From a bacterium (GTDB taxonomy: Bacteria; BMS3Abin14), in the NCBI GenBank assembly GCA_029210545.1, contig JARGFV010000074.1, positions 1-13,119 of the forward strand: a DNA stretch of 13,119 nucleotides, written 5' to 3'. Positions 190-12,977 of the stretch are shown here, one piece after another. Position 1 is the first letter of the stretch. Each line of letters begins with the position of its first letter. The notes under the pieces are model-generated. The model had not been told where the DNA came from. It did no database searches and saw only the letters and a program-made list of their open reading frames with translations. A program made the position numbers and the translations under genes.

Positions 190-1140
190 TTATACCACCA
201 TCCTGAAGACCAGCCCCGTCACCACAGCGCCCGACAGGCAAAGCCCGAGGTAAACGAAAAAGAGGCGCCGCTCGAAGATCTTCCAGAGCACCAGCAGCGC
301 CGGGATGCTCGTCACCGGCCCGGCTACCAGGAAGGTCGCCGCAGCCCCGGGGTCCATTCCCAGGTCAAGGAGACCCCTGATAATGGGCACCACGGGTACC
401 TGGTGGGCCGGGAGGGGCGCCCCGAGGACGGCTGCCCACAGCAGCGAGCTGACCTGGGGCTTGCCCGCCAGGACCTTCACAAAGTCCATGGGCACAGCCA
501 TCTCCAGGATGACCTGCACTGCTACTGCCATCAGGAGGAACTTCCCCACGAACCGGGATGTGTCCCGCGCTCTTTCGAGAAAGAACAACAGCCTGTTTTC
601 CCTGGGAATAACCACCATGGTGGGGATGGAGATGTCGTTGGCGCAGGCGATGTCGTAGGCGGGCGCCAGCGAACCGTCCCCTGTAAAAACAGGCTTGATC
701 CTGACGATGTTTTCCGAAAAATTACTACGTTTTTCAAGGAGATAAGTTACGCCGCCCACCAGAAACCCCATGCCGGCCGCACTGATGATCTTGGTCCACG
801 CGAAGACCGGGCCCAGGCCCGCCCAGGTGATGGTCAGGGCGTCGGGGCTCATGAGAGGCGAAGTGGCCAGGAGAGCCAGCAGTGGGGGCAGGGGAACCCC
901 GGAAACGGCAAGAGGGATGACAACAGGAAGAACCCCGCAGGCGCAAAGGGGACTGAAAATACCCAGAAAAACAGCCAGAGGGATGGTGGCAGCCCCCGAG
1001 TCCCTCATGTAGGCCCGGAGCTTCAGGTCCCACTGGAACGTCTTTATGAAGGCCGCCACACCGACGCCCAGGACAAAAGCCGGGACGAGCTGCCACAGTT
1101 CCCGGCCATAGATCCCGATGGCCTCAAGCATGATGGACAT
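190..1140 (-). CDS. Inner-membrane permease, ArsP/DUF318 (SO_0444) type
   Basis: A 316-residue polytopic membrane protein. Two halves each carry a re-entrant-looking motif: SPLCACGVLP at about 63-72 followed by TSPLMSPDAL at about 93-102, and PLPAHQVPVVPI at about 242-253 followed by AGPVTSIPAL at about 273-282. The CAC pair (Cys66, Cys68) and the duplicated layout are typical of the permease family that includes ArsP organoarsenical efflux proteins and SO_0444-like metal exporters. A polar loop at about 136-192 should be cytosolic. The substrate cannot be read from sequence; metal or metalloid efflux is an inference from the family. It is the last gene of the minus-strand cluster, about 260 bp after the FmdE gene, with repeats between them. 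No strong ribosome binding site precedes the ATG, and a second in-frame ATG lies three codons on. Confidence 0.85.
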   Translation of the reverse strand: MSIMLEAIGIYGRELWQLVPAFVLGVGVAAFIKTFQWDLKLRAYMRDSGAATIPLAVFLGIFSPLCACGVLPVVIPLAVSGVPLPPLLALLATSPLMSPDALTITWAGLGPVFAWTKIISAAGMGFLVGGVTYLLEKRSNFSENIVRIKPVFTGDGSLAPAYDIACANDISIPTMVVIPRENRLLFFLERARDTSRFVGKFLLMAVAVQVILEMAVPMDFVKVLAGKPQVSSLLWAAVLGAPLPAHQVPVVPIIRGLLDLGMDPGAAATFLVAGPVTSIPALLVLWKIFERRLFFVYLGLCLSGAVVTGLVFRMVV

Positions 1141-1217
1141 GCTAATAGTCCAGCATGCAGCTCGCGCCGGTCAGGCGGGAGCTGGGGTGGGGCATCAAGT
1201 AGCCCATTTCATAATTC

Positions 1218-1300
1218 TTCTTCCCCCTTGAGGGGGGAAGACCGAGATGGGGGTGAATTGCCCCCTCACCCCGACCCTCTCCCACGACGGGGAGAGGGAG
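1218..1300. repeat. Two G/C-strand-biased hairpin repeats between FmdE and permease genes
   Basis: One hairpin has arms CTTCCCCC (1220-1227) and GGGGGAAG (1233-1240). A second has CCCTCTCC (from 1275) and GGAGAGGG (to 1298). This type of sequence is a common dispersed intergenic repeat in environmental bacterial genomes. It occupies most of the 262-bp gap upstream of the permease; no gene is seen here. Confidence 0.6.
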
Positions 1301-1323
1301 AATGATGTCAAAGGCGGCGATTA

Positions 1324-1383
1324 ATAACCTCGCCTCACAAAATGAGCCCATGGATTCCCAAAGGAAACTTTTTGTGAGGTTAT
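1324..1383 (-). terminator. Imperfect hairpin after the FmdE gene, possible terminator
   Basis: CCTCACAAAA (1333-1342) pairs perfectly with TTTTGTGAGG (1370-1379), and ATAACCTC (1324-1331) pairs with GAGGTTAT (1376-1383). The two pairings overlap, so they either compete or form one long stem with a duplicated CGAGG bulge. It lies about 20 bp downstream of the FmdE stop codon, so termination is plausible, but there is no clear U tract. A small mobile repeat is the alternative. Confidence 0.4.
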
Positions 1384-1402
1384 CATGATAGTTGGACAAG
1401 GC

Positions 1403-1885
1403 TTATGCTCCCGGGTATCTGCTGACGGTCCCAAGGCCGGTGACAACCTTCGATTCCAGGAGTTCACTGTCCGGGGCCGATGTGAAACGATCCATGAGCA
1501 CGCTCCTTGCTTCCGGTGACCTCTCGCCCCTGATCCGGTCAAGAGCGCCGGGCAAGGGCGATACTTCGATCCCCGTACCCTTCCCTTCTTCCGTCAGGAT
1601 CAGGGAAGAGTTCCGCCCGCGGAGCAGGACCAGGTTACCGTTACCCCACGTACATCCGGTAAAAAGCTGGATCCCGTCCACGGCGCACCCGAACCCGCGG
1701 AAAAAACCGAAAAGGCGTTTATCCCCGCCCAACGAACCTTGTTCGGCATTGGTCAGCATCGCCCTCTTCGCGACCCGGGCACCGAGTAGCACCATGGGGC
1801 AAAGGTGCCCGTGGACCCGCAGGATGAGTCCGATCTCCTCCTCAGAAAGCCCATCAGAATGCATAGTGGTGGGGACAGTCGTCAC
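1403..1885 (-). CDS. FmdE-domain protein
   Basis: 160 residues, essentially one FmdE domain (family of formylmethanofuran dehydrogenase subunit E). Visible signature: HGHLCP at 25-30 (usually HGHLCPG, here followed by Met), then GCAVDGIQLFTGCTWGNGNL at about 66-85, which matches the family's Cys-Asp-x-Ile-Gln and GCT-G-GNL motifs. His25, His27, Cys29, Cys67 and Cys78 are the candidate metal ligands. No C-terminal zinc-finger domain is present, unlike longer homologues. The GTG at 1885 is preferred because GGGAG lies 7 nt upstream; the ATG at 1864 has no such site. Its first 32 nt overlap the end of the AAA gene, which points to translational coupling. Metal or cofactor binding is a family inference; the partner enzyme is unknown, since no formylmethanofuran dehydrogenase subunits are visible here. 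Confidence 0.88.
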   Translation of the reverse strand: MTTVPTTMHSDGLSEEEIGLILRVHGHLCPMVLLGARVAKRAMLTNAEQGSLGGDKRLFGFFRGFGCAVDGIQLFTGCTWGNGNLVLLRGRNSSLILTEEGKGTGIEVSPLPGALDRIRGERSPEARSVLMDRFTSAPDSELLESKVVTGLGTVSRYPGA

Positions 1886-2735
1886 GGTATATCTCCCAGT
1901 ACTTCTCAGTCATGTCGGGGGAAAGCCAGGGCTCCACCTGGTCCACAGCAGCGATAAAATCCTCCATCTGCACCTTTTCGGAATCCCGTTCGACAGCGTT
2001 TAACACCGCCCTTTTGCACAGGTTCTCCACGTCCCACCCCACGAAACCCTCGGTACGGTTCGCAAGCTCGGTGACGTCGATCTGGCCGCCCAGGGTGGGG
2101 ATCCTGTCGACGTAGATCTTCAGCATCCCCTCCCGGTCCCCGGCAGTGGGAGGAGAGACGAAGACCTTGCGGTTGAACCGCTTTTTTTCCTTGATGATGG
2201 CCTGGTCCACGATGTCGACCCGGTATGCCGATCCCATGAGCATGATGTCGGTTCTGCCCTCGATCCGGTCTATCTGCCTTATGAACACCTCGGTAAGTTC
2301 CCTGTCAGCGAACGTGGGCGGTTTGCCCCTGAAGTTGCCCGGACCCCATTCGTAATCAGAGCCGGCCCTAGGGGCCAGCCATTCGGTGTCGGAGATGTAC
2401 AAAACACATGGAGCCTCGTGTTCGGCATCGTGGAACGCCTGCTCCAACTCCCGGGGTTTGCCAAGCATCTCCTGGCCCGAGATATAGACATAAGACACAC
2501 CCGCTTCCGTGGCGGCTGCCTCGGCAAGCATGGTGATCCCGACACCCAAGGGGCCCCAGATAAGGACCCCCGACGGGATGGTGAGCTGGTGCCTGGCCAG
2601 AAGCTCCGCCTTCATCAGGGGCAGGCTGACCATCTCCCGGACGATACGCTTGGGACCTTCCAGGCCGCCGATGTCGTCCCAGGTCAAGGTGGGTTCTTTT
2701 ACCTCATAGTAGATACGGTTGAGTTTTCGATGCAA
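1854..2735 (-). CDS. CDC48/p97-like AAA protein with degenerate ATPase motifs
   Basis: A single AAA module of about 293 residues. Family features are clear: TWDDIGGLEGPKRIVREMV before the P-loop, TEGFVGWDVENLCKRAVLNA in the lid, and a C-terminal helix resembling that of p97. The catalytic motifs are altered. Walker A reads GPLGVGIT instead of GPPGTGKT (lysine replaced by isoleucine), Walker B reads VLYISDTEW where the DE pair is expected (Asp to Ser, Glu to Asp), and the sensor-1 Asn is Tyr in GSAYRVD. The two arginine-finger positions remain (RFNR). It should therefore be a pseudo-ATPase or a non-hydrolysing partner. The start chosen is TTG at 2735, which has AAGGAG 6 nt upstream; the in-frame ATG at 2804 would add 23 residues (including a hydrophobic stretch) but has no ribosome binding site. 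It overlaps the FmdE gene. Confidence 0.85.
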   Translation of the reverse strand: MHRKLNRIYYEVKEPTLTWDDIGGLEGPKRIVREMVSLPLMKAELLARHQLTIPSGVLIWGPLGVGITMLAEAAATEAGVSYVYISGQEMLGKPRELEQAFHDAEHEAPCVLYISDTEWLAPRAGSDYEWGPGNFRGKPPTFADRELTEVFIRQIDRIEGRTDIMLMGSAYRVDIVDQAIIKEKKRFNRKVFVSPPTAGDREGMLKIYVDRIPTLGGQIDVTELANRTEGFVGWDVENLCKRAVLNAVERDSEKVQMEDFIAAVDQVEPWLSPDMTEKYWEIYRDDCPHHYAF

Positions 2736-2804
2736 GGGGAGCTCCTTAACTTTTTTGAATATGGAAGGTGGAAGAAGAACGAAAAACAGACAGTTTCCCG
2801 TCAT

Positions 2805-3014
2805 AACTGACAGACAGCTGACGCCAAAATGTCATTAAAACGCTCTTTCCCCTGATTTCTGGTTACTGGTTCCTGGTTTCTGTTTAAAGACTTCACTTAG
2901 CGTGCCAATTAGCATCAACTCCAGATTCCATATTTTTAATTCCCGATAAATTGCACTTGGCCTTCAGCTGCCTGCTCTGAGCGTAGCTGGCAGCAAAGCA
3001 GTTGCGCTGTGGCG
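2805..3014. repeat. Intergenic stretch with low-complexity repeats
   Basis: No gene is seen. Positions 2853-2882 hold imperfect tandem copies of a CTGGTT(C/A)CTGG-type unit, a common dispersed motif. Positions 2970-3000 are rich in CAGCTG/CTGCC words and include a GCTGCC...GGCAGC inverted pair. A promoter for the AAA-FmdE pair could lie here but none is convincing. Confidence 0.5.
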
Positions 3015-3812
3015 CTAAAAGGCCATGCCTTCCCCAGCTGGTAGCTGATAGCTATAGATCACCCTGTCCACATTGGCTGGCAGCTTTTCCAGGGCAACAC
3101 CCTCCTGCACCTTCTCCAGAACCGCCTTTCCCCGCAGGATCAACGGCTGATCCAACTTTGTGTTGGTCATGGTGATATCCTTTCCAGTGCGGCACTGCTG
3201 ACCACAGGAACCTTTATCAGTCCAGCTATCGGCCTCCCCGTCATATAGCCAGGGGCATGAGGCCGAAACGGTAATGAGCCGTTCCTCCAGGTGCAGGGAC
3301 AGGGCAAAACCGTCCACCTCGGGCACACGCAGCCAGTGGCGCGGCAAGTCCAGTTCCAGCCGGGTCACCCCCATTTGCCCAAGAAAGTCCAGGAAACCGC
3401 TGTCGTAAAGGGGACCCCAGGCGAAATACCTTTTGGACGTTTCATCCAGTTCATCCCAAAGGTCGAACTCCCCCGGGCCGCGCCTGAAGCGCATGAGAAG
3501 TCGGCCCGCCGTGACCCGGGGGCCGTTGAGTTTACCTGCCTGATCCAGGATCCCCCAATCGTTGATCACGATCTCGCCCCAACCCATCTCAAGGGCAGTT
3601 TCCACAACTTTCATGACCTTCAGGTCCTGGCCGGGACCTGCGATGGGGGTCACCAGGGTGAGACCTTCCGTTTTGAACGCCCCTGATATCTTTATGATCT
3701 GCTCCATTTCGGGCAGGAGATCAAAACAGCTCTCGGAACCGAAACGGTATCCGTCCCAGCCCTCAAGGGGGGAATGTGAGTTGAAATTGTCCAGGTACCT
3801 GCTTCTTGACAT
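3015..3812 (-). CDS. UbiV-like U32-family iron-sulfur protein
   Basis: 265 residues, TIM-barrel-like U32 relative. Segments such as EIVINDWGIL (about 80-89) and TAGRLLMRFRRGP (about 101-113) resemble UbiV-type proteins. There are four cysteines: Cys29, Cys186, Cys203 and Cys207. This one-plus-three spacing with a final CxxxC mirrors the [4Fe-4S] ligands described for E. coli UbiV (Cys39, 180, 193, 197, from memory). It lies 18 bp after the UbiU-like gene, and UbiU and UbiV are known to act as a heterodimer in oxygen-independent hydroxylation in ubiquinone synthesis. No ubiquinone genes are nearby, so the substrate is open. The last residues (about 253-265) are encoded by CAGCTACCAGCTG-type low-complexity sequence and may be a repeat-derived tail. 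Confidence 0.75.
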   Translation of the reverse strand: MSRSRYLDNFNSHSPLEGWDGYRFGSESCFDLLPEMEQIIKISGAFKTEGLTLVTPIAGPGQDLKVMKVVETALEMGWGEIVINDWGILDQAGKLNGPRVTAGRLLMRFRRGPGEFDLWDELDETSKRYFAWGPLYDSGFLDFLGQMGVTRLELDLPRHWLRVPEVDGFALSLHLEERLITVSASCPWLYDGEADSWTDKGSCGQQCRTGKDITMTNTKLDQPLILRGKAVLEKVQEGVALEKLPANVDRVIYSYQLPAGEGMAF

Positions 3813-3830
3813 GCCTTTACCGGGCCCCCC

Positions 3831-4844
3831 TTACCATGTACCGCAGATCTTTGGGTAGTAGCAGTTGTGGGGTGTGCAGGGGTGGCCGAAGATGGCGCGA
3901 TATTCCTCCCGACACCTTGTTACCCATTCCCTCCACCCTGGTGTCCCGGATAGTTCCGGGGCGGATAACCCAGACGCCGGCAAGGGGGGCATGGATGCCA
4001 GGACCCTGTCCAAAGTGCTGACCAGCTGGAGCTTTCTGGTAAGTGGAGTTCCCCTTCCCACAACTTTAAACGCTGCAACACCGGCTGCCGCCAGGAACGG
4101 GACAGCGCAGAGGCCACATCCATCCCGACGGTCGCTTTGGGCCAGATCAGCATAATGGCCCGAGACACGGGCTGGAGGAGCTGAACCATTTTCGTCTTCC
4201 AGCTCCCACTTCCATTCGCAGGGCCAGCGGCGATCCGGGCTGTCGTGGACGAAGGAGCATACCCCCTCGATATTGGGGCACTTGCCCACCAAGACGAACG
4301 CTTCGTACTCCAAGTCCGGCACACTCTCAATCATTTCGAGGATCTGTTCGGCGGTCAGGAACCGGGGGAGGATGATCCGGCTGACTCCCAGGCGGCTGTA
4401 CATTCTGACAGCGTGAGCGTTGGAGGCCAACCCCATGGTGCTCAGATGTAAAGGGACCTCGATATTATCCCTGGCCAGGGCTTTCATGAGCCCGGGGTCG
4501 GCGGCGATGACAGCATCCACCCGGATGTCCCTCGCCCACCGCACCAGGTCCAGGACCGCCGGTAACTGCTCGTCCATGTAGAAGGGCGCGTTGAGGGTCA
4601 GGGCAAAGCGGCCGCCCCCTTTTTGGGTGAGGCGGACAGCGTTCTCAAACTCCCCCAGGGAGGAGAACTGCGCGCCTGGAAAGGTCCGCTGGTTCAGGAG
4701 CACCGTGGAAGGGTACCGTTCCTGCCATCGGGAAGGGATTACCCCCCCGTAGAGCCACCTGGCCCCGGCTTCAAGGAGTGGCACGACCTCCTCGACGGAG
4801 TTGATGGGGGCGAGAATGTGGGGGGATTTAATACTATAATTCAT
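3831..4844 (-). CDS. UbiU-like U32-family protein with extra C-terminal cysteines
   Basis: 337 residues from the ATG at 4844. The N terminus (HILAPINSVEEVVPLLEAGA) and the KVVGRG motif late in the barrel are typical of the U32 'peptidase' family, whose studied members (UbiU, TrhP, RlhA) are involved in hydroxylation rather than shown to be proteases. Cys189 and Cys196 (CX6C), Cys209, and Cys243 or Cys246 fit the UbiU [4Fe-4S] ligand pattern. A further C-terminal set, Cys323, Cys328 and Cys334 (CX4CX5C), is unusual and may bind another metal site. The open frame extends upstream to an ATG at 4928, but those 28 residues do not resemble the family and are encoded partly by repeat-like DNA. Spacing to the UbiV-like gene is 18 bp, so the two are probably co-transcribed. 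Confidence 0.82.
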   Translation of the reverse strand: MNYSIKSPHILAPINSVEEVVPLLEAGARWLYGGVIPSRWQERYPSTVLLNQRTFPGAQFSSLGEFENAVRLTQKGGGRFALTLNAPFYMDEQLPAVLDLVRWARDIRVDAVIAADPGLMKALARDNIEVPLHLSTMGLASNAHAVRMYSRLGVSRIILPRFLTAEQILEMIESVPDLEYEAFVLVGKCPNIEGVCSFVHDSPDRRWPCEWKWELEDENGSAPPARVSGHYADLAQSDRRDGCGLCAVPFLAAAGVAAFKVVGRGTPLTRKLQLVSTLDRVLASMPPLPASGLSAPELSGTPGWREWVTRCREEYRAIFGHPCTPHNCYYPKICGTW

Positions 4845-4865
4845 AGTTATTATCCGTATTAAATC

Positions 4866-4895
4866 CGTACGTGCGTATAGCGTACGTGCGCACGT
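4866..4895. repeat. Alternating purine-pyrimidine tract with direct repeat and palindrome
   Basis: CGTACGTGCG occurs at 4866-4875 and again at 4881-4890 (15-bp period), and ACGTGCGCACGT at 4884-4895 is a perfect palindrome. The tract is almost entirely alternating purine and pyrimidine. It lies just upstream of the UbiU-like start, so it could be an operator or a Z-DNA-prone spacer. Similar words (TACGCACACAC, ATACGCC, CTCACG) continue to the end of the preceding gene near 4954. Confidence 0.45.
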
Positions 4896-4951
4896 GAGTA
4901 AAATTGACCACATTTTGTTTTTACGCACACACTCATATACGCCTCACTCGC

Positions 4952-5731
4952 TCACGTTCTTTTCCTGTCCCAGAACTTTTCCTTCCTCTTGTCCCAGAAG
5001 GCCGGGTCAGATGGCACTTCCAGGACATCTCCAACGAGAACGATAGCCAGGGACGGGTCGCCCGAGACCAGGCCGAAGATATCGTCCTCACCAACCACGG
5101 CGGCTATGGTCGCAAGGGTACCCCTGTATACCTTCTCCCCGGAAAGCCCGATGCGGGAGACCACTGCCGCCGGAGTATCGGGCTCGAAACCTTCTGACAG
5201 TTCAGCGGCGAGCTGATCCAGAGGACGGTTGTTCATGTACAGCACCATGGTACCCGCAGCCCTGGCCAATTGGCCCATCTGTCGGGTATCTCCGGACTTG
5301 TCGATATGTTTGGGGCTGGTCAGGACAATGGCATGGCTGACGCCTGGCATATCAAGGGTTTTTTTTAACAGGGCTGCCGCCGCGTTGATTATCCCCACGC
5401 CGGCGATGACTCTGGCCCTCTCCCCGAAACGCTCCACCAGGGGTAAAAAGGGTGAAAAGGCGGTGATGTCACCCGGCACGAGAAACCCCACCGGAGCATT
5501 GGTCAGTCCCTCTTCCACCTCCTCCACGATCTCCCTGAAAACACGGTCGAAGGGGTCCCGGACCTCCTTACCGGCAAGAAACCGCCGAAAGGTCTCAGGA
5601 TAAGGGTCCATCGCATAGACAACGGTGCAGTTGGATAGGGCATCACTGCCTTCCAGGGTCAGGTACCGGGGGTCCCCGGGCCCGGCGCCGATGAAGTAAA
5701 CGGAATGGTATTTATCATTCTTTTTTGTCAT
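4952..5731 (-). CDS. CobM/CbiF-like tetrapyrrole (precorrin-4 C11-type) methylase
   Basis: 259 residues, the usual length for precorrin-4 C11-methyltransferase. SAM-binding features of the tetrapyrrole methylase fold are visible: VYFIGAGPGDPRYLTLEG at 11-28, VPGDITAFSP at about 85-94, GVGIINAAAALL at about 111-122, GTMVLYMNN at about 160-168, and AVVSRIGLSG followed by YRGTLATIA at about 189-210. The closest layout is CobM/CbiF. The canonical LxSGDP motif is replaced by VPGD, so the exact substrate is uncertain. No other corrin-ring genes are nearby; here it leads into the UbiU/UbiV-like pair about 107 bp downstream. ATG start at 5731; GAGGT lies 12 nt upstream, an imperfect ribosome binding site. 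The last codons and stop enter the alternating tract described separately. Confidence 0.82.
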   Translation of the reverse strand: MTKKNDKYHSVYFIGAGPGDPRYLTLEGSDALSNCTVVYAMDPYPETFRRFLAGKEVRDPFDRVFREIVEEVEEGLTNAPVGFLVPGDITAFSPFLPLVERFGERARVIAGVGIINAAAALLKKTLDMPGVSHAIVLTSPKHIDKSGDTRQMGQLARAAGTMVLYMNNRPLDQLAAELSEGFEPDTPAAVVSRIGLSGEKVYRGTLATIAAVVGEDDIFGLVSGDPSLAIVLVGDVLEVPSDPAFWDKRKEKFWDRKRT

Positions 5732-6274: not shown

Positions 6275-7123
6275 TCACCGCGTCTCCCTGTCTCCGTAGG
6301 GCGAGATCTCTATCCTCACACCCTCCGTTACCGAACCCCCTTCAACCTCCCGGGGCTGATCCCGCCCGCCCCAGAATCCGATCCGGTCTTCCGGTCCCGG
6401 TTTGCCCCTCAGGCCGGTCCTCGCCCCCACCGTGAACGTGCCGCCGCCAGGCAGGCTGATCCGGAAATATCCGTCCTCATCAGCTTCGGGGGCCATGAAA
6501 TCCGGGGGATCAGGCCTGAACTTTCCTTCGTATGCGAAAACGTGGGCACCGGGCACCGGCCTGCCGGAAAGATCGACTACCTGACCCTCTATCCGTGTGT
6601 CCGTGGTCAGAATCCGCTTCGGATCGCCCTCGGCACCCTGGTGAAACCCGGTCAGGATGATCCCGAGATTCTTCACTCCCCCGGAAACCGCTTCGACAGG
6701 TTCCGCTACCTGGCCGGCCAGGTCTCCGTTCCGGAGGGGTCCGCTGATCGCCCCTGAGACCCTCCTGCGCGCAGCAACCATGTAAAACCCTTCCGGGACG
6801 ATGAGCAGGTACCTGCCATCCTCACCCGACGGCTCACTCATTGCGTCGGCCGGGCCGAGAATGTTGTGCTTCCCGGCATTGTAAGCGTAAACGTAACCTC
6901 CCGGAACCGGTTGCCTGTTCACATCCACAATTCGGCCGGTGATTTGGACACCCTCCCAGCTTTTTATTTCTTGGCCAGAACAAGCCGGAAATAAAAAGCA
7001 AAGGGGTAATAATACGGACAGAAACAAGAAGAAACATAACCCGTCTCGGCCACAGATATCCCTGGGAGATAAGACCCGGGATGCTGGAGCCTTGGAAAGG
7101 CGCATACCACATTTAAGCATCAT
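6275..7123 (-). CDS. Lipoprotein with two carboxypeptidase-regulatory-like domains
   Basis: About 282 residues. After a basic N-terminal stretch, a hydrophobic segment (CFFLFLSVLLPLCFLFPAC) ends in a plausible lipobox cysteine, so the mature protein should be anchored to a membrane facing the periplasm or outside. Two similar beta-sandwich domains follow, each with the signature (I)xGxVVDxxxxPVPGxxVxAY and a later DGxYxxxxPxGxxxVxAR. The first starts about 12 residues after the lipobox, the second about 115 residues later. Such domains usually serve binding or structure; no catalytic residues are visible. The ATG at 7123 is chosen because AGGTGG lies 5 nt upstream; an in-frame ATG at 7183 has no ribosome binding site. 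The final GDRETR residues and the stop come from a GGAGACAGGGAGACGCGG-type repeat, so the original C terminus may have been altered. Confidence 0.7.
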   Translation of the reverse strand: MMLKCGMRLSKAPASRVLSPRDICGRDGLCFFLFLSVLLPLCFLFPACSGQEIKSWEGVQITGRIVDVNRQPVPGGYVYAYNAGKHNILGPADAMSEPSGEDGRYLLIVPEGFYMVAARRRVSGAISGPLRNGDLAGQVAEPVEAVSGGVKNLGIILTGFHQGAEGDPKRILTTDTRIEGQVVDLSGRPVPGAHVFAYEGKFRPDPPDFMAPEADEDGYFRISLPGGGTFTVGARTGLRGKPGPEDRIGFWGGRDQPREVEGGSVTEGVRIEISPYGDRETR

Positions 7124-7275
7124 ATCGGCCACCTGCGACGCAGATGCACGAACTGTACCGTGTTTAATATCCTGATCATCCATGGGATTTTACGGTACCG
7201 GTTCGAGTTAGCCAAGGGGTATTCAGATTTCGTGTGGGGAAACGGGCATGCGGGGCGTGGGTCCCAAGGTTAACT

Positions 7276-7454
7276 TTGATAGGGTCGCAAAAAGTCCAAT
7301 CCGGGACTTTTCGCTCCACGGAAAGGGAAAAGCGTCGTTTTCCCTTTCCTTACAAATCAATGACTTATCCCGCAAATTAATGACTTGCGGTGCGGGTCAT
7401 TGATTTGGGCACCCCGCGCGGGGTGCGTTGATGGATTTTTTGCGAGTCCATCAA
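7276..7454 (-). repeat. Complete family-1 multi-hairpin element (179 bp)
   Basis: Read on the minus strand, it starts TTGATGGACTCGCAAAAA and ends TTTTTGCGACCCTATCAA, giving imperfect ~22-bp terminal inverted repeats. Internal stem-loops in order: TTGATGGA/TCCATCAA; an 18-bp palindrome (7409-7426); AATCAATGAC/GTCATTGATT enclosing a smaller CCGCAA/TTGCGG stem; GGAAAGGGAAAA/TTTTCCCTTTCC (12 bp); and AAAGTCC/GGACTTT. It carries no open frame, which suggests a MITE- or REP-like non-autonomous element. Its outer end provides the stop codon of the GxxExxY gene. Confidence 0.85.
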
Positions 7455-7684
7455 TCTTCAACGACGATATCGATTCTGTAACCACATTCCAACTGGATCT
7501 CTTTGTATCTAACAGGTAGATGAACCTGGCGATCATGCCTCAGACCTGCGCTTCTCAACTCATAGCACAGGCATTCTTCATATGCGGATTCCAACAAACC
7601 AGGCCCAAGAGTCTTATGTACCTCAATAGCAAGGCCAAGAACCTGGTCGGTCAACGATCCTTTCTTGATCCTGGTATCAGCCAA
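7451..7684 (-). pseudogene. Truncated GxxExxY (PDDEXK_3) protein
   Basis: 77 residues from the TTG at 7684, which follows an AGAGGAG site by 9 nt. The core [20 protein letters not shown] and [14 protein letters not shown] is the diagnostic start of the GxxExxY family, a PD-(D/E)XK nuclease-fold group normally about 125 residues long. Here the frame ends at YRIDIVVED, just before the expected beta strand carrying the E-x-K catalytic residues. The stop is the TGA within the first bases of the family-1 repeat at 7454, and no remaining coding sequence is found on the other side of that repeat. It is therefore very likely inactive. An in-frame ATG at 7711 falls in the neighbouring repeat and is unlikely to be used. 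Confidence 0.75.
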
Positions 7685-7700
7685 GTATTTATTCTCCTCT

Positions 7701-7830
7701 TTTCTCCGCATCTTCCGCCGTCGCTAGCGCCTTTCGTCCAGCTTCCGACTACGCTTTACAAGCTACGACGGACAAGATGGCGGGACAAGCCGTGGTGAAT
7801 CAGTCTTTCGGGCTTTGCCGGCGCACGCCC
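7701..7830 (-). repeat. Family-3 unit 1, interrupted by a family-2 element
   Basis: Flanking parts match the intact unit at 7859-7916: CTCCG... on the left and CGTGGTGAATCAGTCTTTCGGGCTTT on the right in two parts. The middle (7715-7790) is the inserted family-2 element. The right portion overlaps the end of cysC. Confidence 0.65.
7715..7790 (-). repeat. Family-2 element inside family-3 unit 1
   Basis: On the minus strand it begins with two CTTGTC-type units (CTTGTCCCGCCAT, then CTTGTCCGTCGT), then AGC..., an AGTCGGAAGCT segment and a final GCGACGGCGG. It is very similar to the copy at 8951-9025 and is inserted at the same point of the host repeat. Confidence 0.7.
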
Positions 7831-8525
7831 TTTGCCTTCCCCTTGGACTTGTTTTCTCCGCTTTTCTCCGTGTCTCCGTGGTGAATCAGTCTTTCGGGCT
7901 TTAACGGCAAACGCCCGCTCCCTTTCAATTTAATTATCTCTACCTTTTCCAGTAGTTCAACGATCTCTCCCGCGCATTCCTCGATCGACAGCGCTCCCGT
8001 ATCCAGCACAAGCTCAGGACCGTCCGGAACCTCATACGGGCTGTCAATTCCGGTGAACTCTTCAATTTCTCCACTGCGGGCTTTTTTGTAAAGCCCTTTC
8101 GGATCCCTCTCCTCGCACAGATCCAGGGGACAATCCAGGAAAACCTCGAAGAACTTCCCGACGCCGGCCCGGTTTCTCGCCATTTCGCGCTCCTCCCTGT
8201 AAGGGGAGATAAAGGCCGTGATCACAACGAGGCCGGCGTCCATCAAAAGATTTGCGACCTCACCGATGCGCCGGATATTTTCCTTCCGATCCTCATCGGA
8301 AAAGCCAAGATCTTTGTTCAATCCGCTCCTGACGTTGTCCCCGTCGAGAACGTAGCTGTGGATACCGCGTTCCATGAGTCGCCGCTCAACGTCGTAGGCG
8401 ATGGTGGATTTCCCGGATCCGGACAGCCCGGTGAGCCATACGACAGCCGAGCCGTGACCGAGGATCTTCCGGCGGTCATCCGATGAGAGCAGCCCTTTGT
8501 GAGGAATGATATGTTTTGATTCCAT
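7800..8525 (-). CDS. cysC: Adenylyl-sulfate kinase (APS kinase)
   Basis: Phosphorylates adenosine 5'-phosphosulfate to PAPS with ATP in cytosolic sulfate activation. Family hallmarks: P-loop GLSGSGKST at 33-41, DGDNVRSGLNKDLGFS at 61-76, ENIRRIGEVA at 82-91, FISPYREERE at 105-114, and CEERDPKGLYKKAR at 127-140. The catalytic core ends near residue 200. The last ~40 residues (from about GSGRLPLKPERL onward) are encoded by two family-3 repeat units and look like a repeat-derived, basic tail with no family counterpart. The ATG at 8525 is preceded by TTGGAG with a 5-nt spacer. No ATP sulfurylase (CysD/CysN or Sat) gene is in the window. The SLC13 permease further right on the same strand is a likely functional partner, but about 640 bp of repeats separate them. 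Confidence 0.93.
   Translation of the reverse strand: MESKHIIPHKGLLSSDDRRKILGHGSAVVWLTGLSGSGKSTIAYDVERRLMERGIHSYVLDGDNVRSGLNKDLGFSDEDRKENIRRIGEVANLLMDAGLVVITAFISPYREEREMARNRAGVGKFFEVFLDCPLDLCEERDPKGLYKKARSGEIEEFTGIDSPYEVPDGPELVLDTGALSIEECAGEIVELLEKVEIIKLKGSGRLPLKPERLIHHGDTEKSGENKSKGKAKGVRRQSPKD
7859..7916 (-). repeat. Family-3 unit 2 (intact), inside the 3' end of cysC
   Basis: Contains TTCTCCGTGTCTCCGTGG, GTGAATCAGTCTTTC and ACGGCAAACGCCC. Read on the minus strand it encodes the tail residues GRLPLKPERLIHHGDTEKSG of CysC. It is an intact example of the unit interrupted in copies 1 and 4. Confidence 0.65.
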
Positions 8526-8611
8526 AATTACTCCAAAGCCTATAACAAGGAGAATATAAAACTATTAACCACGGAGACACGGAGGACACGGAGAAGGTCC
8601 TTTTCGCATAT

Positions 8612-8732
8612 CCTCACCTGACCTTCCTCCCTGGAGGAAGGGATTTCTCTGAAATCGGTAGATAGAACATTGAAGATGTTGTTGAAAGTGCTCTTTCACA
8701 AACATCTTCAATGCTCATCCATTCAGGTGAGG
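8612..8732. other. Cloverleaf-like inverted-repeat structure, possible structured RNA or small mobile element
   Basis: A closing stem CCTCACCTGA (8612-8621) / TCAGGTGAGG (8723-8732) encloses three hairpins: CCTTCCTCC/GGAGGAAGG (8622-8641), GATTTC/GAAATC (8642-8656), and a long arm CATTGAAGATGTT (8668-8680) / AACATCTTCAATG (8701-8713), continued by TGAAAG/CTTTCA (8683-8698) around a TGCT loop. All stems are perfect over 6-13 bp. The strand of any transcript is unknown. Low protein-coding likelihood; it does not match tRNA. Confidence 0.6.
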
Positions 8733-8845
8733 GATAATTGTTTCCCATTCCTTTATCTGCGAGCTTGGCTTCTTCAGGCTTTTGGAACCTCAACGTTTTC
8801 TCCAACCCATCACTCCCCAGCTCTTTCCAATTGGAATGTATTTAT

Positions 8846-8904
8846 CTCGGTGCTCTCTGTGTCTGTAATGAATCAGTCTTCAGTATATTAATGGTGTTTG
8901 CCTG
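8846..8904 (-). repeat. Family-3 unit 3 (diverged)
   Basis: A diverged version reading CTCTCTGTGTCTGTAATGAA, then TCAGTCTTCAGTATATTAATGG and GTTTGCCTG in consecutive pieces. It aligns end to end with the other units but has many substitutions. Confidence 0.5.
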
Positions 8905-8930
8905 AGCCTTTCCCCCTGTATTTGTCTTTC

Positions 8931-9064
8931 TCCGCTCTTCTCCGTGCCTCCCGCCGTCGCTAACGCCTTTCGTCCAGCTTCCGTCTACGCCAGAGGCTAC
9001 GACGTGACAAGATGGCGGGACAAGCCGTGGTGAATGCTCTTTACGCTCTGATGGCATACGCCTG
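8931..9064 (-). repeat. Family-3 unit 4, interrupted by a family-2 element
   Basis: TCTTCTCCGTGCCTC on the left and CGTGGTGAATGCTC...GGCATACGCCTG on the right rejoin to the pattern of the intact unit at 9097-9156. The intervening 8951-9025 is the family-2 element. Confidence 0.65.
8951..9025 (-). repeat. Family-2 element inside family-3 unit 4
   Basis: On the minus strand it starts with two 13-bp units (CTTGTCCCGCCAT, CTTGTCACGTCGT), then AGCCTCTGGCGTAGACGG, and ends GCGACGGCGGG. It is inserted at the same point as the copy at 7715-7790. Confidence 0.7.
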
Positions 9065-9096
9065 AGGATCCCCCCTAAAGAGATTTGTGCTTTCCT

Positions 9097-9156
9097 CCGA
9101 CTTTCTCCGTGCCTCCGTGGTGAGTCAGCACTTTACGCGTCAGTGGCAGACGCCTG
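9097..9156 (-). repeat. Family-3 unit 5 (intact)
   Basis: An intact unit: TTTCTCCGTGCCTCCGTGG, GTGAGTCAGCACTTTACGCG and TGGCAGACGCCTG in consecutive pieces. It begins about 10 bp downstream of the SLC13 stop codon. Confidence 0.65.
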
Positions 9157-11640: not shown

Positions 11641-12195
11641 GTGTCGAGAAAAATCAACACCATGCCGAAGGTTTTTTCAGTAGCTGTTGTTCTGCTTGTC
11701 GTCATGTTCGCCTTCGGGTGTGCGACAAAGGGATCCGGACCTGAACTTACACCTGCCGCTGCCCATCCCAAGGCGCCGGAGGTGACCTTCAGGTATCTTG
11801 ACGGGACCCAGACAAGCCTGTCCGATTATGTCGGTGAATCGGTGGTCGCGGTCAACTTCTGGGGCCTGAGATGCCAGAACTGCATTGAGGAGATGCCTTT
11901 CCTGGAGAGGCTCCACAACAAGTACGGGGGCAAGGGACTCCTCATTGTCGGCGTGAACACCGATGGTGTCGATGAGGCGCTGCTCCCTCGCTTCTTGCCC
12001 CAGCTGCCTGTAACGGTCAGCTATCCTTTCGCCGTCGATCCCGAGTTCATCCTGGCCGATTCTTTCCAGATGATGGCGGCGCCGCTGACGATAATCGTCG
12101 CCAAAGATGGGACGGTGAGGTATCGACACGAAGGGTATCAGCCTGAGGTCGAGGCGGAGTTCGTTGAGATCATCGAGGATCTCCTGGCGGAATAA
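11641..12195 (+). CDS. TlpA-like thioredoxin-fold lipoprotein
   Basis: 184 residues. A hydrophobic segment (VAVVLLVVMFAFGC) ends in a lipobox with Cys27, so the protein should be membrane-anchored outside the cytoplasm. The thioredoxin domain begins near residue 42. The active site is CQNC (Cys78, Cys81) preceded by WGLR instead of the usual WATW, and the cis-proline is in MAAPLTIIV (Pro148). Family role: thiol-disulfide exchange on exported proteins, for example in cytochrome maturation; the actual partner is unknown. The GTG start at 11641 follows AAGGAGGGG by about 7 nt; an ATG seven codons on lacks such a site. It is followed by a strong terminator and then by a paralogue. Confidence 0.85.
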   Translation: MSRKINTMPKVFSVAVVLLVVMFAFGCATKGSGPELTPAAAHPKAPEVTFRYLDGTQTSLSDYVGESVVAVNFWGLRCQNCIEEMPFLERLHNKYGGKGLLIVGVNTDGVDEALLPRFLPQLPVTVSYPFAVDPEFILADSFQMMAAPLTIIVAKDGTVRYRHEGYQPEVEAEFVEIIEDLLAE

Positions 12196-12235
12196 CGTAA
12201 AAAACCCGGGAAAGAATATTCCAGGTTTTTTACGT
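12195..12235. terminator. Rho-independent terminator, probably bidirectional
   Basis: ACGTAAAAAACC (12195-12206) and GGTTTTTTACGT (12224-12235) form a perfect 12-bp stem, with a smaller GGAA/TTCC stem inside the loop. The A and T tracts are inside the stem on both strands. The stem begins at the last base of the stop codon of the first TlpA-like gene. Confidence 0.75.
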
Positions 12236-12278
12236 ATGACAAAATTCGTTCCAGGCCGGGAGCCATCTTGAGATCAGA

Positions 12279-12310
12279 GATTTGAGATCTGAGATTTGAG
12301 ATCTGAGATT
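12279..12310. repeat. 14-bp tandem repeat
   Basis: Two perfect copies of GATTTGAGATCTGA (12279-12292 and 12293-12306) plus four bases of a third. A diverged unit precedes it. The rest of the gap 12236-12434 shows no gene. Confidence 0.75.
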
Positions 12311-12361
12311 AACTCCTCTAAAGCGGCCTCCAACCGGCTGCTCTGCATATTCGCCGTAACT

Positions 12362-12389
12362 TTGCTGGATCCATAACAGTAATTATAGA
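12362..12389 (+). promoter_or_regulatory. Candidate promoter for the second TlpA-like gene
   Basis: TTGCTG (12362-12367), a 16-bp spacer and TATAGA (12384-12389). A run of ten T (12404-12413) follows in the presumed leader. Because a terminator separates the two thioredoxin-like genes, the second one needs its own promoter. Motif match only. Confidence 0.3.
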
Positions 12390-12434
12390 GGGGTGGATGG
12401 CCGTTTTTTTTTTGCGTTTCGGGACTTTTAAACC

Positions 12435-12977
12435 ATGCGAACTCATATCCTGACCCTGGCGTTTCTGTTTACCTACAGTATCTCGTGTACTGCTGGAGAT
12501 ATTGTCGGCCCCAGGGAAACGACCGTTTCCAGTACAAACGGCCATGTCGGGACTGCTGTGGCCGCTTTCGAGGGGAAAACCTCATCCGGTAAAGAGGTGT
12601 CTTCGAGAAATTTCGGAGGTGAAGTCCTCATCATCGACCTGTGGGGCCTCAATTGCGGATCGTGTCTCGAAGAGATGAAGGCTCTCGAACCGATCTACCG
12701 CGAGTATAAGGATAAGGGGCTCAGGATCTGGGCGGTCAACACTGAAAATATTGGTGCCCCGGAGATGAAGAACGGGTTGGCGGAACGAAAGATGGAAGTC
12801 AGCTACGATCTCCTGGTGGATCCGGACCTGGAGATAACGAAAAATTTCACAAGCTGGTTCATTCCTGTAACTGTCATCGTTGACAGGGAGGGGATCGTGC
12901 AATATTATAAGGTCGGTTTTAATCAGGCGGACGCTGAAAAGATTAAGGCGAAGGTGGAGGCTCTCCTTGCCCGGTAA
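12435..12977 (+). CDS. Second TlpA-like exported thioredoxin-fold protein
   Basis: 180 residues. A short hydrophobic N terminus (ILTLAFLFTYSISC) could be a lipoprotein signal ending at Cys18, although the lipobox is poor; a cleaved or uncleaved signal is also possible. The thioredoxin domain has CGSC (Cys74, Cys77) preceded by WGLN, and the cis-proline in FIPVTVIV (Pro144). It resembles the upstream gene in length, layout and the unusual WGLxC context, so the two are probably paralogues from a duplication. No clear ribosome binding site is seen before the ATG. The coding sequence is more AT-rich in places than its neighbour. A family-1 repeat begins about 20 bp after the stop codon. Confidence 0.82.
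   Translation: MRTHILTLAFLFTYSISCTAGDIVGPRETTVSSTNGHVGTAVAAFEGKTSSGKEVSSRNFGGEVLIIDLWGLNCGSCLEEMKALEPIYREYKDKGLRIWAVNTENIGAPEMKNGLAERKMEVSYDLLVDPDLEITKNFTSWFIPVTVIVDREGIVQYYKVGFNQADAEKIKAKVEALLAR

Follow-up and report, generated by a model that had tools for sequence, protein, structure and literature searches.

A six-gene cluster with a U32 protein pair and a degenerate AAA protein belongs to a conserved bacterial gene system of possible cofactor function

We analysed a 13,119-bp window, the entire contig C74 (JARGFV010000074.1) of a metagenome-assembled genome (MAG; 2.7 Mb, 97% complete), and in particular a run of six genes at 190–5731. All six open reading frames were confirmed on the minus strand. 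From the upstream end, they encode a CobM/CbiF-like S-adenosylmethionine (SAM) methyltransferase (4952–5731, 259 amino acids (aa); PF00590, E 1e-37), a UbiU-like U32 protein that we call U (3831–4844, 337 aa; PF01136, E 7e-32), a divergent U32-family protein, V (3015–3812, 265 aa; no Pfam or NCBIfam match), a CDC48-like pseudo-AAA protein, pAAA (1854–2735, 293 aa; PF00004 and AAA_lid_3), an FmdE-family protein (1403–1885, 160 aa; PF02663, E 5e-18) and an ArsP_1-family permease (190–1140, 316 aa; PF03773, E 2e-37). Comparison with relatives moved the start of pAAA to TTG 2735, not 2804 (MHRKLNRIYYEV...), and comparison with homologues placed that of U most likely at ATG 4844, not 4928. FmdE and pAAA overlap by 32 bp, V and U lie 18 bp apart, and intergenic gaps of 262 bp (1141–1402) and 279 bp (2736–3014) interrupt the run. 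A preliminary description of this DNA had listed the six genes in this order, which relatives share beyond chance; the repeats that it placed within the gaps were not recovered, as neither gap contains a direct repeat of at least 25 nt. The window's repeats are located at 6.2–13.1 kb. Because the window is the whole contig, its left edge, directly past ArsP, is an assembly break.

The AAA protein had been called catalytically degenerate, and alignment to its best PDB match, an archaeal VCP-like ATPase, bears this out. Walker A GPPGVGKT is replaced by GPLGVGIT (K to I), Walker B FLDE by YISD (DE to SD) and the sensor-1 Asn by Tyr, with one Arg retained in the Arg-finger region; pAAA therefore lacks the intact Walker A and Walker B that define CDC48/VCP membership. 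The altered motif GPLGVGITM was invariant in 12 of 12 pAAA sequences from the window's phylum and Nitrospirae, and the pAAA proteins of further lineages also lack the Walker A lysine (for example, GPLGVGIKM and GPLGAGMTM). A CPHHY motif lies at the C-terminus. None of the other five proteins is as conserved within the phylum as pAAA, which has 81–85% identity to the window copy (ArsP, 66–82%; CobM-like, 62–73%; FmdE, 44–60%; U, 51–58%; V, 43–50%). Nei-Gojobori nonsynonymous divergence (dN) was 0.04–0.17 and synonymous divergence (dS) 0.5–2.6, often near saturation, giving a dN/dS of about 0.05–0.1; pAAA is therefore under purifying selection and not decaying. At least one relative (L008) also encodes a CDC48-like protein of 730 aa in which Walker A is intact.

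U and V had been described as an iron-sulfur pair like UbiU and UbiV, which fold and cysteines support. The best NCBIfam model for U is UbiU, matched below its cut-off (82 bits for the window protein versus 440); U also matches Escherichia coli UbiU (E 8e-22) and, weakly, the TrhP model, these two being its nearest models. V is more elusive: none of 13 members matched the UbiV model at E 0.1, and neither sequence searches of PDB, Pfam and NCBIfam nor a comparison with viral structures returned anything relevant. However, the V profile matched the U profile (E 9.5e-8), and the AlphaFold model of V (predicted local distance difference test score 84) had as its top Foldseek PDB match the U32 protein MK0906 (5d88, E 5.9e-4). 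VIA-align scored 5d88 at Z 12.0, tied with other triosephosphate isomerase (TIM) barrels; CutC, which also ranked high, was set aside as a common TIM barrel. U thus belongs to the U32 superfamily through PF01136, and V, by profile match and the fold of its predicted model, is a U32-family member overlooked by family libraries.

In UbiU and UbiV, the patterns CX6CX16CX38C and CXnCX12CX3C (for UbiV, C39, C180, C193 and C197) have been shown to bind 4Fe-4S clusters (PMC6747719). The candidate cluster ligands of U are C189, C196, C209 and C243, and V has a UbiV-like pattern of C29, C186, C203 and C207 (C-Xn-C-X16-C-X3-C), with C203 present in 12 of 13 members. Spacing in both proteins partly departs from the UbiU and UbiV motifs. 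As both keep cysteines of the UbiU/UbiV type, U and V likely bind iron-sulfur clusters, judging from sequence. A U-V-like pair was also observed in G053 (L074, 7127–13512) with neither pAAA nor ArsP, adjoining an opposite-strand gene for a 1301-aa protein of the CobN/Mg-chelatase family.

For the CobM-like protein, the best NCBIfam model was cobM_cbiF, below its cut-off (96 bits versus 260), and CobM/CbiF are its closest solved relatives. Searching the window genome with the CobM-like profile (E 1e-10) gave this single match; with no other close tetrapyrrole methylase found there, we rejected a role in a cobalamin pathway in that genome. Among 80 genomes searched, strong matches (E 4e-79 or better) were restricted to the window's phylum and four Nitrospirae genomes; the remaining matches (1e-37 or worse) were at the level expected of true CbiF-type enzymes. 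FmdE (66 bits versus a gathering score of 22.9 for PF02663) keeps the motifs HGHxCP, GCxxDG and GCTxGN, and ArsP (129 bits versus 32.3 for PF03773) has an invariant CxC within FSPLCACG. The nearest NCBIfam models of ArsP, SO_0444 Cu/Zn efflux and SaoE, gave 87–99 bits against cut-offs of at least 300.

These affinities raise the question of a tetrapyrrole. The CobM-like protein and U-V could act on a heme-like cofactor, which ArsP would then export for use in cytochromes, in keeping with the kinship to CobM/CbiF, with the proximity of the cytochrome c biogenesis gene ResB and of some c-type cytochromes, and with the CobN/Mg-chelatase neighbour in G053. The tetrapyrrole methylase superfamily, however, also acts on RNA, proteins and peptides, and two lineages keep U-V and ArsP without a CobM-like gene. 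This speaks against a central place for tetrapyrrole methylation; the tetrapyrrole product proposed in the preliminary description is not supported as a general feature, and we regard the heme explanation as improbable.

To place the cluster in context, we compared 12 genomes of the window's phylum (among the MAG records of relatives are CP070682, CP070719 and QIEJ01000003), several of the pAAA-negative ones being 71–91% complete; querying at class or at phylum level gave the same 12. pAAA occurs in 7 of the 12 and V in exactly the same seven, and ArsP is adjacent in seven genomes of the phylum. The full order CobM-U-V-pAAA-FmdE-ArsP was found in five genomes (G000, G001, G002, G004 and G008); a sixth (G011) has the cluster spread over two contigs, and G003 has V-pAAA-FmdE-ArsP only. 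In G007 (L093, 3278–4675), CobM-like is followed directly by a C-terminal remnant of ArsP, and the block missing between CobM-like and the UnbV gene comprises U, V, pAAA, FmdE and most of ArsP, through either block loss or an assembly artefact.

Beyond the phylum, a survey of 193 genomes found pAAA in two genomes from other phyla and then in 4 of 4 and 2 of 2 genomes of those two small phyla; five Nitrospirae-titled records also have it. In G194, U-V-MoaA-MoaC-pAAA-ArsP lie within 8.5 kb. G097 and G195 share the order NosD-U-V-ArsP, which continues in G195 with UnbV and a CarboxypepD_reg gene; in both, pAAA lies elsewhere, after CarboxypepD_reg-MoaA-MoaC. Three Nitrospirae genomes (G198, G199 and G200) cluster CobM-V-U with ArsP nearby; in a small Nitrospirae draft (G197) the contig terminates inside CobM-like. 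The preliminary description had proposed looking for at least four of the six genes together in distant lineages, and both the Nitrospirae genomes (CobM-like, V, U and ArsP clustered, pAAA elsewhere) and G194 (U, V, pAAA and ArsP) show this; the scattered homologues and uncorrelated profiles that would have spoken against a system were not seen. From their distribution, CobM-like and FmdE are lineage-specific, and the wider core is U, V, pAAA and ArsP.

The two long gaps in the window would suit a chance co-orientation of unrelated genes, but the same order across genera, the absence of the block as a unit in G007 and the co-occurrence in distant lineages make chance scarcely credible. Conserved order and co-occurrence instead show that the six genes are linked as parts of a system.

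A different explanation comes from the lineages in which MoaA and MoaC adjoin pAAA (G097, G195 and G194, with a MOSC protein as well in G097): pAAA and FmdE might assist in the synthesis or insertion of a molybdopterin cofactor destined for a periplasmic enzyme. The name FmdE derives from the formylmethanofuran dehydrogenase operon, and an ethylbenzene-dehydrogenase-like heme-binding protein is encoded further along the locus. Yet in neither the window's phylum nor Nitrospirae does a moa gene lie near the cluster, no molybdoenzyme catalytic subunit was recognised by eye in the stretches of the locus that were read, and molybdenum cofactor synthesis is not known to involve U, V or CobM-like. 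Such a maturation function therefore seems distinctly unlikely.

The six genes are part of a supercluster of about 35 kb, of which the window contains half. Upstream of CobM-like, in relatives as in the window (6275–7183, minus strand), lies a gene for a CarboxypepD_reg protein with two repeats, the recurring extracytoplasmic family of the supercluster. In G002, the same contig continues past the cluster with an UnbV/FG-GAP propeller, CarboxypepD_reg, NosD/PQQ and a spermidine-synthase-like membrane protein; then further CarboxypepD_reg and NosD proteins, OpuAC, DUF362, NapH/G and ResB; then a histidine kinase, an NtrC regulator, the ethylbenzene-dehydrogenase-like protein, HEAT and a second NapH-like protein; and finally PhnD, YedE, two GeoRSP proteins and a TIGR01977 desulfurase. 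Contig C12 of the window genome carries this series too, beginning with UnbV, which is the gene after ArsP in relatives. The ends of C74 and C12 do not overlap, and we infer their adjacency from the relatives' gene order; close to its end, C12 has a sequence that recurs in the window, which could explain the contig break. Two Nitrospirae loci (L019 and L022) have the order PhnD-YedE-desulfurase-pAAA-CarboxypepD_reg-UnbV-CarboxypepD_reg-NosD/PQQ.

Among the 193 genomes, the system's CarboxypepD_reg family was present in 9 of 9 pAAA genomes and in only three more, of which two belong to the window's family (P = 3e-13, Fisher exact test, kinship ignored). The sole genome outside the pAAA lineages with matches to this family was G149 (C65, C42 and C214). 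Two side observations come from these loci: in G002 (L127, 4074–6072), a GeoRSP radical SAM protein (TIGR04303, over its cut-off) and its SPASM partner lie between YedE and the desulfurase, and in G198 (L079, 15734–16648) a NicO-type nickel transporter with a His-rich loop is encoded amid NosD-like genes.

These associations also bear on whether ArsP and pAAA are mere neighbours of a U-V pair acting like UbiU-UbiV or TrhP, with CobM-like methylating the new hydroxyl of a quinone or RNA. The models closest to U are UbiU and TrhP, and hydroxylation followed by methylation is known from both the ubiquinone and the 5-methoxyuridine (mo5U) tRNA pathways. But ArsP stays beside U-V or CobM-like in three lineages, pAAA and CarboxypepD_reg track U-V, and no quinone gene was seen nearby, so that we consider a modified quinone or RNA quite improbable.

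The supercluster has a link of the selenium type. YedE (TIGR04112, over its cut-off) was found in 17 of 17 pAAA genomes from four lineages, compared with 4 of 48 unrelated genomes (by lineage, 4 of 4 versus 4 of 48; P = 3e-4, Fisher exact test). It was also found in four of five genomes of the window's family that lack pAAA, and thus does not track pAAA within the family. YedE adjoins DUF362, NapH/G and NosD in G194 and lies inside the supercluster in G000 and G002; in G009 a desulfurase-YedE pair is near CobM-like. Searches for SelA found none in the eight pAAA genomes from two lineages, all with YedE, or in G004 (73% complete); SelA was present in 4 of 4 unrelated YedE genomes and in two of the pAAA lineages. 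None of SelD, YqeB, YqeC and SelU was near YedE in the stretches examined, although they may lie elsewhere in the genomes. YedE has been reported to be confined to selenium-utilising organisms (PMC5322559).

Such a distribution would fit an arm of the system whose role is to make or handle a small molecule, other than selenocysteine, that contains selenium or a persulfide and is supplied through YedE and the TIGR01977 desulfurase/selenocysteine lyase and used by an extracytoplasmic apparatus. The association with pAAA, the physical linkage of YedE in Nitrospirae and the four other genomes, and its occurrence where SelA was not found all point this way. Conversely, the cargo of YedE is a prediction and YedE relatives move thiosulfate, so it may carry sulfur instead; SelA is present in two pAAA lineages, some SelA-negative genomes are incomplete, and YedE occurs in own-family genomes without pAAA. 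We consider this selenium or reactive-sulfur system, a special case of the interpretation set out below, unlikely. Its narrower form, in which U-V, CobM-like, pAAA and ArsP would build a cofactor that contains selenium but is not selenocysteine and export it for use by an extracytoplasmic redox apparatus, with some lineages dispensing with selenocysteine insertion, is more doubtful still.

Taken together, we propose that the six genes form one arm, located in the cytoplasm and inner membrane, of a single conserved multi-gene system that makes a small cofactor-like molecule and exports it to an extracytoplasmic apparatus, an interpretation on which we are evenly divided. U and V would pair as a heterodimer in which each subunit carries one 4Fe-4S cluster, and this complex would hydroxylate a small precursor independently of O2. 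Where present, the CobM-like protein would use SAM to methylate the hydroxylated product, and FmdE might serve as a metal- or cofactor-binding carrier. pAAA, which presumably does not hydrolyse ATP, may have a scaffold or chaperone role, keeping hold of the enzymes or the product or passing them on, and the ArsP-type permease, with its CxC motif, could export the product. The product would then be received by, or mature, an electron-transfer apparatus outside the inner membrane, probably composed of CarboxypepD_reg proteins, FG-GAP/UnbV propellers, NosD-like beta-helix and PQQ-like proteins, DUF362, NapH/G polyferredoxins and ResB, and potentially under two-component/NtrC control.

Several observations weigh against this proposal. 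CobM-like was not found in two of the four lineages or in G003, and FmdE was seen in this position only in the window's phylum, so their steps are not needed everywhere. U was not found in G158, G197 or G003, the Nitrospirae pAAA does not adjoin U-V-CobM-ArsP, and the pair in G053 occurs without pAAA. Comparing V with one UbiV sequence, that of E. coli, gave no significant similarity, leaving the kinship of V with UbiV based on cysteines, pairing and fold. Finally, although the proposal draws support from a correlation among the distances of the four core proteins U, V, ArsP and pAAA (r = 0.93–0.96), common ancestry alone may account for it.

Two other features of the window lie outside the cluster. 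Repeats of 25–63 nt (7691–9116) lie around genes for an adenosine 5′-phosphosulfate (APS) kinase (7800–8525) and a PDDEXK_3 protein (7451–7711), and a tandem pair of ResA/TlpA-like thioredoxin-fold proteins is encoded on the plus strand (11641–12977).

We found no described system with this gene combination in the family libraries and open papers searched (subscription literature lay beyond this scope), and no relevant open literature on GeoRSP or the Sao organometal system. The single parts are variants of known families, and the system as a whole appears to be undescribed. About 20 linked gene families recur in at least four deep bacterial lineages, themselves known chiefly through metagenomes; among them, a conserved but degenerate AAA protein and a U32 pair subfamily missed by libraries occur together with an elaborate extracytoplasmic redox apparatus. 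Should the proposed chemistry hold, O2-independent hydroxylation would extend beyond ubiquinone and RNA, and pAAA would be a bacterial example of a pseudo-AAA protein under strong selection. The selenium-type link offers a direct, testable handle on the system.

By curated criteria, U, V, CobM-like and pAAA fall outside the UbiU, UbiV, CobM and active CDC48 families, although U-V may work like UbiU-UbiV. With UbiU-UbiV (and UbiT) the U-V pair shares adjacent U32 genes, partly similar four-cysteine patterns and the match of U to UbiU; in contrast, V is unmatched by the UbiV model, the score of U is well short of the UbiU cut-off, neither UbiT nor a quinone gene was seen near U-V, and the pair is tied to pAAA, ArsP and extracytoplasmic proteins. 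The TrhP tRNA hydroxylases weakly resemble U, which is shorter and paired with V, with no tRNA-modification gene seen nearby. CobM/CbiF precorrin-4 methyltransferases are closest to CobM-like by sequence, but the low model score and the lack of a further close tetrapyrrole methylase in the window genome set it apart, and three Nitrospirae genomes (G198–G200) have a CbiF-like gene separate from it. pAAA has the AAA domain and lid of CDC48/VCP ATPases; it differs in being single-domain, in its replaced Walker A Lys, Walker B acidic pair and sensor-1 Asn, and in its C-terminal CPHHY. The window ArsP is, like SaoE and SO_0444, a PF03773 permease with a CxC motif, but far under either subfamily cut-off. 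Like the nos accessory genes (NosD and NapG/NapH-like), the supercluster brings together NosD-like beta-helix, NapH/G polyferredoxin and propeller-type proteins; however, no NosZ, NosF or NosY was recognised in the stretches read, and U-V, CobM-like and pAAA are foreign to nos. With selenium utilisation genes and the GeoRSP radical SAM system it shares YedE, TIGR01977 and GeoRSP proteins matching their models over cut-off, whereas here YedE also occurs where SelA was not found and is linked to U-V/pAAA and an extracytoplasmic apparatus.

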